From an uncultured Spirochaetaceae bacterium (GTDB taxonomy: Bacteria > Spirochaetota > Spirochaetia > Sphaerochaetales > Sphaerochaetaceae): a stretch of DNA of 64,000 nt. The notes below the pieces were generated by a model. The model made no database searches. It was not told the origin of the DNA and saw nothing but the letters and a program-made list of their open reading frames with translations. Position 1 is the first letter of the stretch, and every line of letters begins with the position of its first letter. Position numbers and translations under genes: made by a program. Positions 46,841-50,664 of the stretch are shown one piece after another. Location of the stretch: NCBI GenBank assembly GCA_944388955.1, contig CALXKJ010000005.1, forward strand, positions 1-64,000, in the 5' to 3' direction.

Positions 46841-47404
46841 TCAAGCAAGACCAAAAGGTACAATTACAGGATTGAGAACCAAGCCCTCGCCTTTAGATCC
46901 GATTCTCTGCAGTACACGCAAGTCCTGAGTATATCGTGTCCGTCCAGAGATAATCTCAATATTCAGCATTGCATCGTAGAATTTATATGTCAGATCATCT
47001 GTAAGTCTTATTACAGCATAATATTTATTCCCAGATTTAAGGATATCCGCAAGAACTGGATTGCCATCAAAAACAGCCGTGATTGAAGCTCCTTCGTTTA
47101 TTCCTCCTGTAACTATTTCAAGCGGAAGGAAAAATCCTTTGACGTTCTCAAGTCCTGCAAATCCATTTATACCGCTATTGATGTATGTGCTTGCACAGTT
47201 TCCATCAACAACCACAGAGCCTTCGATTTCTATCGGTGAAGTAGTGAATACATATCCGGTAATGCCATCAATTGTGAAAACAACATCATCTTCTGCACCA
47301 TTCACAGCAAGAATATCATCCTTAATCTCGCCATTATTCATATCGCAAGCAGCAAACATAAGAATGATGCAGAATGCAAGCAGTGCAATAGCTTTTCTAT
47401 TCAT
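46841..47404 (-). CDS. putative lipoprotein
   Basis: A 187-residue protein with lipoprotein signal (MNRKAIALLAFCIILMFAAC, lipobox Cys at 20) and a beta-rich mature domain of unknown family. GGAGAAAGAT precedes the ATG at 47404; this start overlaps the end of the upstream helix-turn-helix gene by 8 nt, so they form a pair. Confidence 0.65.
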   Translation of the reverse strand: MNRKAIALLAFCIILMFAACDMNNGEIKDDILAVNGAEDDVVFTIDGITGYVFTTSPIEIEGSVVVDGNCASTYINSGINGFAGLENVKGFFLPLEIVTGGINEGASITAVFDGNPVLADILKSGNKYYAVIRLTDDLTYKFYDAMLNIEIISGRTRYTQDLRVLQRIGSKGEGLVLNPVIVPFGLA

Positions 47405-47624
47405 ATCTTTCTCCTCTGCTATCTGTTTTTGTTCCACGATTTGCCCAGCTCAAATCCCCCGCCTTATATCTCCTGTTGTATTCACGGACAGTGTATTTAT
47501 TCAGGCCTGTCGTCATGGCTGTCTTCTTGTACCCATAGCCACTCCTAAACAATTCAAGACATTGCTTTCTTATCTCATTTGGAATTCGTGGACGAATAAG
47601 AACTTTCAGATTTTCACTTCTCAT
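47397..47624 (-). CDS. orphan transposase-like helix-turn-helix protein
   Basis: A 75-residue protein whose core, RIPNEIRKQCLELFRSGYGY then KKTAMTTGLNKYTVREYNRRY, is a helix-turn-helix like that at the N-terminus of IS-type transposases. There is no catalytic DDE domain downstream, so it is either a remnant of an insertion sequence or a small regulator. I chose the ATG at 47624 (GGGGA upstream); the frame is open farther but crosses a terminator. It overlaps the lipoprotein gene downstream. Confidence 0.6.
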   Translation of the reverse strand: MRSENLKVLIRPRIPNEIRKQCLELFRSGYGYKKTAMTTGLNKYTVREYNRRYKAGDLSWANRGTKTDSRGERYE

Positions 47625-47698
47625 GATGATAGTCCCCATGAATACTTCATGGTTATGTACAGATATTGCTGAGCATGATGGAACAGCAGTTATAAATA

Positions 47699-47720
47699 AT
47701 GGGGAGCAGGAACTCCCCAT
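47699..47720 (-). terminator. terminator of the 47739-48290 lipoprotein gene
   Basis: Stem ATGGGGAG (47699-47706) / CTCCCCAT (47713-47720); on the minus strand the downstream side is ATTATTTAT. Confidence 0.7.
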
Positions 47721-47738: not shown

Positions 47739-48290
47739 TCAGGGATCAACAGGATCCATATTGTCGGTACCTCCTACATCCCCACCAGGTTGTGTCGATT
47801 CTTCCTCGCCATCGTCTGGTGACGTCTGCTCTTCCTCGTCATCATCAGCAGTTACAGTTCCCGTGATTGTGTTTCCTTTCGTGATACTCGAAGCAGAGAC
47901 TGTATAATTCTTGCCATTAACAGTTACCGTTACTTCTGTTGATGAATTGGTTACAGTAAATTCCATTGAGTAATTATCGTCAGATACTGTAATTGTCACA
48001 GACCAATTGTCCTTAGACGTCCATGAAAGGTTATACTTTACGCTGTATGACTTATCCCCTGACGTGAAGGTCGCAAGTGTCTGCTCTCCACCTGCTGCAG
48101 ATTCCGGATTATCTGTTCCGTTCTCAGCAGTCTTGCTGTTGATATCATCAATTACAGCCTTGTATGCATCCACCGCGACATCTAGGTCTTTGGCAGAAAT
48201 TGCAGCCTCTTCTTTATCTGGCTCATTATTACATGCTGTAAACGCGAACAGCATCATTCCTGCAAGAAGCAGAATAAGAATCTTCTTCAT
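47739..48290 (-). CDS. putative lipoprotein with acidic low-complexity tail
   Basis: A 183-residue lipoprotein (MKKILILLLAGMMLFAFTAC, Cys20). The mature part has a helical segment (residues 30-52), a Thr/Ser/Val-rich beta domain (70-145) and a tail rich in Asp, Glu, Pro and Gly (146-183). No family is recognised. GGAGGTTTTAA precedes the ATG. Its promoter contains a nine-G tract in the spacer, suggesting phase-variable expression of a surface protein. Confidence 0.68.
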   Translation of the reverse strand: MKKILILLLAGMMLFAFTACNNEPDKEEAAISAKDLDVAVDAYKAVIDDINSKTAENGTDNPESAAGGEQTLATFTSGDKSYSVKYNLSWTSKDNWSVTITVSDDNYSMEFTVTNSSTEVTVTVNGKNYTVSASSITKGNTITGTVTADDDEEEQTSPDDGEEESTQPGGDVGGTDNMDPVDP

Positions 48291-48320: not shown

Positions 48321-48351
48321 AACCTACCCCCCCCCGGTAGTGTTTTGTCAA
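48321..48351 (-). promoter_or_regulatory. lipoprotein promoter with poly-G spacer
   Basis: On the minus strand TTGACA (48346-48351) is followed by a 19-nt spacer that ends in nine G residues (48327-48335), then TAGGTT (48321-48326). Loss of two G would give the optimal 17-nt spacing. The tract also sits between inverted arms CTACC/GGTAG. Confidence 0.5.
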
Positions 48352-48525: not shown

Positions 48526-48708
48526 AAGGATGTCTGGGACACGAATAATCTATTATGCGCTCAATTAGATTGCACAATGGAGATAAATCAATGAAAAGAT
48601 GTGCATTACAAATTTATATCGATTAGTAACTTATAAAAATATGGAATTTCATCGGTCAGTAATCGACAAAATTAAATTATGCTCTTAAACTTTCCATTGG
48701 AGGTTGCA

Positions 48709-49971
48709 GTGGATAGAGAAGTACTCAAAAAGGTGATACTGGATCAGCATGAGATAATCAAGAAGTTCAGCATAGTCCCAAGAGAAATCAGACTCGAGAA
48801 GAATATCAACTACGTTCTGACAGGGCTGAGGAGAGCTGGTAAGACAGTGCTTCTGTACGGACTGGTTCAGAAGCTGGTTTCTGAAGGTACAGACTGGAAA
48901 CAGATCATATATATAAATTTTGAGGATGAACGGCTGGAGGGTTTCACTCTTAAGGATTTTGACGACATTGTTTCCCTTCAGGCTCAGTGGGGAGGAAAAG
49001 GGCATTTCTTCTTTGACGAAATCCAGAATATTGATGGCTGGGAGAAATTCGCGCGTCGTCTCAGCGATGCAAAAGAACACGTATGCATCACCGGAAGCAA
49101 TGCAAAAATGCTCAGCCGTGATATTGCAGAACGCCTCGGAGGCAGATACATCCCTGTAGAGGTTCCTGTATATAGCTTTACCGAATACCTTTCCGCCTCC
49201 GGAGTCCCATATGATACGGACTCATGTGCTTCAACGAAGGGGCAGGCAGCAATACGCGCGTCTTTTGATGATTATCTTCACTGGGGAGGCTTTCCAGAAA
49301 CGCTTGATTTCACAAATAAAAGGCAATATATATCAGCTGTTTTCCAGAAAGTTCTTTTAGGAGATGTCATACTGAGGAACAATATCCGGAATGAACAGGC
49401 AGTAAGAATGGTCATCAAGAAGCTGGCAGAAAGCGTAAAAGACGAGATGTCAGCTACAAGACTGGCAGGTATCGTAACAGCAACTGGATGCAGGACAAAC
49501 ACTGATTCAGTTCTCAGCTATCTCATAAATCTTCAGGATGCATATCTCTGCTTCCCTATCAGAAATCATTTCTCCTCCTTAACAGAAAAAGAAGGAATAC
49601 AGAAACGCTATTTTTCCGACACAGGACTCCTTTCGCTTTTCCTTGTTGATAAGAATCCGCTGCTGCTTGAGAATCTAGCCGCATTATCTCTTGTCCGCCT
49701 TTATGGTCATGAAAGCGTCCATTACATCAAAAGCTCAAAAACAGGTCTCGATATAGATTTCTTCATCCCGTCTTCAGGCGAAGTTTTCCAGGTAAGCTGG
49801 GTTCTTGATAGCCTCTCAAGTACACGGGAGATAATGGGTCTCGTGAAAGCCAGAAAACTCATAGAAGAAGCAAGCCGTTTCATCATACTGACTTATGATA
49901 CAGAAAGCATCATACATATGAATGACTTTGATATCGAGGTAATTCCGCTCTGGAAATGGATGCTGAAATGA
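48709..49971 (+). CDS. AAA ATPase with DUF4143 domain
   Basis: A 420-residue second member of the AAA_14/DUF4143 family. Walker A LTGLRRAGKTVLL near residue 38, Walker B HFFFDEIQNIDGWEKF, sensor CITGSNAKML; the C-terminal part has KRYFSDTGLLSLFL and the nuclease-like KTGLDIDFFIPSSGEVFQVSW. The GTG at 48709 has GGAGG 5 nt upstream and is preferred over the ATG 30 nt earlier. It lies among lipoprotein genes and is monocistronic. Function unknown. Confidence 0.8.
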   Translation: MDREVLKKVILDQHEIIKKFSIVPREIRLEKNINYVLTGLRRAGKTVLLYGLVQKLVSEGTDWKQIIYINFEDERLEGFTLKDFDDIVSLQAQWGGKGHFFFDEIQNIDGWEKFARRLSDAKEHVCITGSNAKMLSRDIAERLGGRYIPVEVPVYSFTEYLSASGVPYDTDSCASTKGQAAIRASFDDYLHWGGFPETLDFTNKRQYISAVFQKVLLGDVILRNNIRNEQAVRMVIKKLAESVKDEMSATRLAGIVTATGCRTNTDSVLSYLINLQDAYLCFPIRNHFSSLTEKEGIQKRYFSDTGLLSLFLVDKNPLLLENLAALSLVRLYGHESVHYIKSSKTGLDIDFFIPSSGEVFQVSWVLDSLSSTREIMGLVKARKLIEEASRFIILTYDTESIIHMNDFDIEVIPLWKWMLK

Positions 49972-50173
49972 ATGGGGGTGAAACAGCAAAGAGCTGATGG
50001 GTTTTGCCTATTGTGAAATATCAAATCAGAATGATTTGGGAAAGCGCGTGCTATCAGAATCAGCATCTTCTACCGAAGGAGACAACAACCCGGTGATTTA
50101 ACAGAGGCTTATTCAAGCAAAGGCCATGCACAATAAGCACAGCCTTAATCTACAGAAGATGAGCCTCCAAGGA

Positions 50174-50575
50174 CTACCCAAGAATAATCGCCTGAGTTGT
50201 ATCTCCTTCTGTATTCCCGCGCTGTGTAAATATTCTTACACCACTCCTGCCATCAATAACATGCTTATCAGCCTTGGATACAAACTTGATTTCGTCACCA
50301 TTTTCGTCCCATGCACATCCATCAAGGAGTTCAAGACCATCATTTTCAAGATCATCAATGAGATCATCATCCTGTTTTGTTGTGTAGAATTCGTTTACAA
50401 GCAGGTTATCGATATCAATAACAGCGGCTTTGTGATCGAAACTCTTAACATATACTGAGAGAGCTTCAACCTGCTCCTCAGTCGCAGGCTTTACTTCATT
50501 TTCGTTGTTACATGCTGTAAATGTGAGAAGCATCATAACAGCAAGAAGTAATACAGAAATCTTCTTCATTTTCAT
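50174..50575 (-). CDS. putative lipoprotein
   Basis: A 133-residue lipoprotein (MKMKKISVLLLAVMMLLTFTAC, Cys22), acidic (many Asp/Glu in residues 65-95), family unknown. The signal sequence closely resembles that of the 47739-48290 gene, and both genes share upstream sequence (TACC-G-rich-GGTA followed on the + strand by GTTTTTTCTTCTC), so the two leaders derive from a common ancestor. Confidence 0.65.
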   Translation of the reverse strand: MKMKKISVLLLAVMMLLTFTACNNENEVKPATEEQVEALSVYVKSFDHKAAVIDIDNLLVNEFYTTKQDDDLIDDLENDGLELLDGCAWDENGDEIKFVSKADKHVIDGRSGVRIFTQRGNTEGDTTQAIILG

Positions 50576-50664
50576 TGCCCCATGTATTAGATGCCTATAG
50601 GCTACCCGCCCCGGTAACTTTTTTTGTCAGGTTTTTTCTTCTCCCTCTGTGCTATACTGCTTCC

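Follow-up and report, generated by a model that had tools for sequence, protein, structure and literature searches.

Is the run of nine G in the promoter of a spirochaete lipoprotein gene a phase-variation switch, and if so, at which tract length is the gene expressed? The window, the whole stretch of 64,000 nucleotides analyzed here, comes from an uncultured Spirochaetaceae bacterium. The initial annotation had described a promoter at 48351-48321 made of TTGACA, a 19-nt spacer ending in nine G, and TAGGTT, and had likened it to promoters in which a poly-G tract switches a surface protein gene on and off. The sequence reads exactly so: the minus strand is TTGACA-AAACACTACC-G9-TAGGTT with a spacer of 19, and paralogous promoters share arms and differ in G count. 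As in porA-type promoter-spacer phase variation, a homopolymer of at least 8 lies between the -35 and -10 elements, and the promoter drives a gene for a surface or secreted protein, recognized by its lipobox, whose ATG lies 36 nt downstream of the tract. The parts are as follows.

48346..48351, minus strand: -35 element TTGACA; TTGAC is common to all 74 slippery promoters compared below, for which it was a selection criterion.
48336..48345, minus strand: ten-base spacer arm AAACACTACC, whose last four bases, TACC, are part of a conserved WAC(C) element adjoining the tract.
48327..48335, minus strand: G9 tract, the presumed slippage switch, from the window sequence and the tract list of the genome.
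48321..48326, minus strand: -10 element TAGGTT (TANNNT); TANNNT directly follows the tract in 70 of the 74 slippery promoters (TA was demanded by the search, the T at the sixth position was not).
47739..48290, minus strand: lipoprotein gene behind the poly-G promoter, encoding a lipobox protein of 183 aa that starts MKKILILLLAGMMLFAFTAC.

Upstream of the promoter and divergent from it, on the plus strand at 48679-49971, lies a gene for an AAA_14/DUF4143 ATPase. The 183-aa lipoprotein has a weak Pfam match to DUF4969 (E 3e-6, below the family cut-off), and no relatives of it were found in the genome contigs database. The comparison with the tpr genes of Treponema pallidum that had been drawn for this locus stands for the mechanism; membership of the tpr family was rejected because the Pfam search of the 183-aa protein returned no Tpr domain.

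Within the window a run of this kind is not unusual (G7 gives 3 overlapping matches, and 41 of 100 shuffles reach as many), and the case for the tract therefore rests on comparison. The window's own genome (G000) contains 21 distinct tracts of at least nine G (28 overlapping matches), against about 2.5 expected by a first-order estimate from window composition. Eleven of the 21 sit in canonical TTGAC...TANNNT promoters with spacers of 17-21, and all of these carry G9 except one, which carries G10; the promoter list of this genome holds one additional site, with a spacer of 27. A further tract of the 21 belongs to a promoter split by an insertion element (C6:81). Across a genus set of 48 genomes, one assembly per species, the layout TTGACN{9,15}G7N{0,6}TA had matches in 38 and none in the other ten, and the reversed-pattern control was zero in 47 of 48, which places the promoter context well beyond chance. 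When spacer 19 and G9 were both forced, at least 114 stretches matched, including uncultured Spirochaetaceae, uncultured Spirochaetales, and Candidatus Ornithospirochaeta. The window and 120 loci (L029-L048 and L242-L341, a subset of the loci found) yielded 74 promoters that we call slippery, because their G run is unbroken and 7 or more long. Their ATG mostly lies 33-43 nt past the start of TA, and a strict lipobox is encoded behind 64 of the 74, compared with 5 of 59 window genes (Fisher p 1e-20); a loose lipobox is found behind 66. The window promoter is thus one of a genome-wide set of look-alike promoters and not an isolated case.

A relative of this promoter lies in the same window. The initial annotation had held that the related promoter of a neighboring lipoprotein gene has a broken tract and would be stable; the tract is indeed broken and presumably stable, and the -35 element of this promoter is CTGACA, not TTGACA.

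50599..50630, minus strand: related promoter with interrupted tract GGGGCGGG and spacer 20 (CTGACA-12 nt-GGGGCGGG-TAGCCT).
50174..50575, minus strand: lipoprotein gene of the interrupted promoter, 133 aa, from the list of open reading frames.

Tract lengths were tabulated for 78 promoters with at least seven G in eight genomes. The run was 9 in 45, 10 in 18, 8 in 11, 7 in 2, and 11 in 2, and the spacer was 19 in 38, 18 in 12, 20 in 7, 21 in 6, and another length in 15. Within single genomes, promoters with identical arms differ in G count (G048, 9, 10, 9, 10, and 10; G050, 9 and 10, and 9 and 11; G009, 11, 9, and 9). Such differences on near-identical arms favor slippage of the tract; since paralogues and not strains are compared, this speaks for slippage in the course of evolution and is no demonstration of switching within a population. 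A comparison of flanks between pairs at 78% identity gave mostly alignment noise and was meaningful in its top rows only. MutS1 scored above cut-off in 46 of the 48 genus genomes, so repair is not absent; porA is described as switching in a mutS-proficient background, and faster without mutS (PMC3639595). The motif GnT is a published mutation hotspot (PMC12344412). Loss of the first -10 base by such a change had 4 matches in the 48 genomes, 3 of them T to G, which is too few to conclude from. The three have lengthened tracts as the hotspot predicts, and the first is a further promoter of the window's own genome (C4:132544).

G000:C4:132544-132576: promoter with the first -10 T changed to G.
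G043:C4:12775-12805: promoter with the first -10 T changed to G.
G004:C15:11694-11724: promoter with the first -10 T changed to G.

Taken together, we consider it probable that this locus phase-varies through its promoter spacer, with the G9 tract as the switch, and that a genome of this genus has about a dozen such loci. Slippage at tracts of G8-G11 would alter the distance between the -35 and -10 elements, and the altered distance would change, cell by cell, the amount of the surface lipoprotein and of a small helix-turn-helix (HTH) protein whose gene follows. The productive setting is probably the modal spacing, 19 nt, which G9 provides here, and losses or gains of G would probably lower expression stepwise, by analogy with meningococcal porA. 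The sequence, its recurrence, its gene association, and the differing tracts on identical arms are observed; from these we infer population slippage, the effect on transcription, and the identity of the ON length.

As to that length, the initial annotation had remarked that 7 G would give 17 nt; the spacing data do not support 17 nt as the active length, for the commonest spacing is 19 in slippery tracts (38 of 78), interrupted tracts (16 of 27), and a TATAAT set from unrelated gut bacteria (28 of 43, a mode biased by the choice of genomes; see below). Since 19 is the mode in slippery and interrupted tracts alike, G9 is more likely the active setting. Interrupted tracts are natural locked controls, which makes the question of which spacing is on a testable one. 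This class has 28 rows, one of which is a second reading of the same site; in the 27 distinct rows the spacer is 19 in 16, 18 in 6, 16 in 2, and 17, 20, and 21 once each. For comparison with 73 slippery promoters (one row with spacer 10 was dropped), we used a set of 22 interrupted lipoprotein promoters that was hand-picked post hoc, leaving out L289, L330, L338, L263, L337, and the double reading; L330 has no gene call and a spacer of 16, and its removal favors a reading of 18-19 nt. In this hand-picked, post hoc comparison, the spacer was 18-19 in 20 of 22 interrupted and 47 of 73 slippery promoters (p 0.017), more than 1 nt off 19 in 1 of 22 and 19 of 73 (p 0.036), and exactly 19 in 16 of 22 and 36 of 73 (p 0.086, not significant). 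The difference is modest and post hoc, and it points to 18-19 nt as the productive spacing, with 17 disfavored. The tight mode at 19 could alternatively be a fixed promoter feature or the modal state of mostly silent genes, and interrupted tracts may simply carry the modal length from the time of breakage. The near-uniform G9 in the canonical promoters of the window's own genome also weighs against switching. An independent estimate of vegetative spacing was sought from TTGACA...TATAAT in four genomes, which gave only 17 scattered matches and no usable optimum; looking for a positional signal after TTGACA elements ahead of genes left 18 non-G7 cases, a number too small to use.

The strongest competing explanation, which we judge somewhat improbable, takes G9 as the silent setting: most members would be off at any time, with the modal length as their silent state, and expression would need a shorter tract (17-18 nt), in line with the initial annotation's remark that seven G give 17 nt. 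The usual sigma-70 spacer optimum is 17 nt, and promoters of the class "short," which have few G and a degenerate tract, have 18 nt in 5 of 7 cases. The tprL promoter of T. pallidum would also fit, as it is active with 8 G and falls close to background with 10 G (PMC7864442). Against this, the interrupted and presumably non-slipping lipoprotein promoters are mostly at 19, and promoters fixed in the off state should be expected to decay.

Another alternative involves the gene that follows the lipoprotein gene in the presumed operon.

47397..47720, minus strand: gene for the small HTH protein, which has a transposase-type DNA-binding domain (conserved over 47433-47624); in the presumed operon it comes directly after the lipoprotein gene.
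46841..47437, minus strand: a further lipoprotein gene, which overlaps the HTH gene at its end; G012 has this gene order too.
50160..50234, minus strand: degenerate remnant of a small HTH gene (E 1.4e-6), behind the second lipoprotein gene of the window, that of the interrupted promoter.

Pfam HTH_23 was found in 20 of 24 members of this family and a Sleeping Beauty-type HTH in 8. The protein is predicted as a helical HTH with a core pLDDT above 90, and a Foldseek search with this model gave no match at E <= 0.001, the top ranks being weak ones to paired and transposase DNA-binding domains. Eight genus genomes hold 5-13 copies each; the gene is not universal in the genus, as of the eight genus genomes in a class-level search G021 and G044 lack it and G055 has one copy, and the single match in G020 lies at an insertion element. 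The family looks restricted to the genus: none was found in 13 listed genomes of other genera in the same bacterial family, and the rest of 198 class genomes gave 4 weak matches. In five of the genomes with 5-13 copies, 30 of 35 copies lie on the same strand within 2.5 kb downstream of such a promoter, where less than 1% would be expected per copy, and 3 of the 5 exceptions begin no more than 1.3 kb from the end of a contig. The genes (those of the window and L342-L371) are stand-alone open reading frames, often followed by hairpin-like sequence (read by eye), and the protein is homologous to OrfA of an insertion sequence in the same genus; it is a possible co-transcribed, transposase-derived regulator.

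Such a protein, or a MerR-style one, could bind the G tract and WACC as an operator in a regulated promoter class with an overlong 19-nt spacer, the length being set by operator geometry and slippage being incidental. The spacing of 19 is kept while the border between arm and tract shifts (an arm of 10 goes with G9 in 26 of 38, an arm of 9 with G10 in 11 of 18), the WACC element is conserved (WAC or WACN closes the arm of 55 out of 73 slippery promoters), and an HTH gene stands behind 30 of 67 promoter-like sites in the five genomes, all of which this explanation would accommodate. It fares worse with the dyad CTACC...GGTAG of the window, which is not general, AACC or TACT arms being common; with the paralogues that have identical arms and vary in G count; with the same layout in bacteria of other phyla; and with G055, which has one HTH gene but many poly-G promoters. 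We regard it as unlikely. It is very improbable that the tract has no function and arose by chance or in assembly, and an assembly artefact was rejected as the whole explanation. G7 is unremarkable in the window and homopolymer lengths in draft assemblies can be wrong, but against this stand the excess of tracts of at least nine G, their fixed context, the empty reversed-pattern controls, and the lipoprotein association.

The insertion sequence itself is found beside G tracts. In 10 of the 11 junctions read, 2-4 nt separate a G tract from the end of the repeat carrying the IS3-like OrfA (L193, L202, L207, L195, L203, L208, L206, L194, L197, and L204): three in G000, three in G020, and one each in G014, G047, G063, where the tract is just G6, and G056. 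A second G056 junction has no G tract, and one G014 junction falls outside the 11. One G000 insertion splits a lipoprotein promoter; provided that C7 and C6 represent opposite ends of a single copy, it is flanked by a repeated AAA. For at least one insertion (L048), the adjoining G tract is not part of a lipoprotein promoter. The G9/C9 tract of that locus (G000:C29:12445-12453) seems to fall within the beginning of an opposite-strand gene for a protein with a signal peptide. The terminal repeat, CTACC-N4-GGGGG-TTAG, resembles the promoter; scored against 52 spacer-19 promoters, the repeat end scores higher than 1,987 of the 2,000 versions in which its first nine letters were permuted, and 13 reach the true score. 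In a scan of the window with the 20-base end, the promoter scored 14/20, tied second behind a 15, and is thus not the unique best match. The alignment was chosen after seeing both sequences, and we treat the likeness as a lead only; if true, it would explain the insertions beside G tracts. One may speculate, with less confidence than in the switch itself and as a rather unlikely case, that the genus has a regulon of slippage-switched lipoprotein operons with transposon-end-like promoters, in which a domesticated transposase HTH at the end of many operons would bind the WACC-G9-TAG core, such that a slip in one tract would alter its own lipoprotein and, by way of the HTH protein of that operon, other members, and so couple the otherwise independent random switches.

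Among the matches listed, the layout with spacer 19 and G9 also occurs in Lachnospiraceae, Clostridia, Bacilli, Mucispirillum, and further groups, where by eye it often precedes genes for secreted proteins (L081-L192). A search of 14 of these non-spirochaete genomes that left the spacing free and required a perfect TATAAT found matches in 10, with the controls at zero; the spacers (n = 43) were 19 in 28, 18 in 9, 20 in 4, and 17 and 21 once each, with a mode at 19 that is biased because the 14 genomes were picked for having one spacer-19 match. The Bacilli genome G064 has one arm at G9, G10, and G11 as well as an interrupted 19-nt version. It also has 21 layouts of the TTGACA-arm-G9-TATAAT type. 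On our reading, the layout in other phyla would be of independent origin.

To our knowledge, promoter-spacer switches are known mostly from a few pathogens. Here, one layout runs across most of a gut spirochaete genus and occurs also in gut Bacilli, Clostridia, and Lachnospiraceae; because it recurs so, tract lengths could be counted directly in public gut metagenome reads. If the regulon reading were true, the switches would be coupled, for example towards one surface protein at a time, and should the small HTH proteins act on these promoters, the system would be a family of random switches wired for cross-talk, as well as a clear example of a domesticated transposase. Our literature search, which covered titles and abstract starts and had subscription journals and preprints outside its scope, found no paper describing such a system, and none on phase variation in Sphaerochaeta or on poly-G promoter phase variation in Lachnospiraceae.

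How, then, does the locus compare with known systems? MerR-type promoters have an overlong spacer of 19-20 nt, a feature shared by the 19-nt spacer here, but the dyad in the spacer is not conserved across our set. The small HTH genes resemble IS3-family OrfA in being homologous to OrfA of the genus insertion sequence, and the N-terminal HTH of IS911 binds terminal repeats (PMC7780238); unlike OrfA, they are short (about 60-85 aa), stand alone behind lipoprotein genes, and apparently lack a catalytic part. With tprL of T. pallidum, also a spirochaete, the locus has in common a promoter poly-G (8-10 in tpr) and surface-protein genes, and in tprL activity depends on tract length (PMC7864442); the genes here are instead lipoprotein genes, and the tract lies exactly between a clear -35 and -10. 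Further precedent for such switching is found in PMC13293289. Another close parallel is porA of Neisseria meningitidis (also opc and fetA), in which a homopolymer, of 9-11 in porA, lies between the -35 and -10 of a surface-protein promoter (PMC3639595 and PMC2791445), and in which 11G gives high, 10G about 2-fold lower, and 9G about 13-fold lower surface expression (PMC3639595). The present system, known from its sequence, differs from porA in having about a dozen paralogous promoters per genome with one layout, a modal spacing of 19, and a small HTH gene in many of the operons. We would thus describe it as putative homopolymer-spacer phase variation with a possible co-transcribed, transposase-derived regulator.
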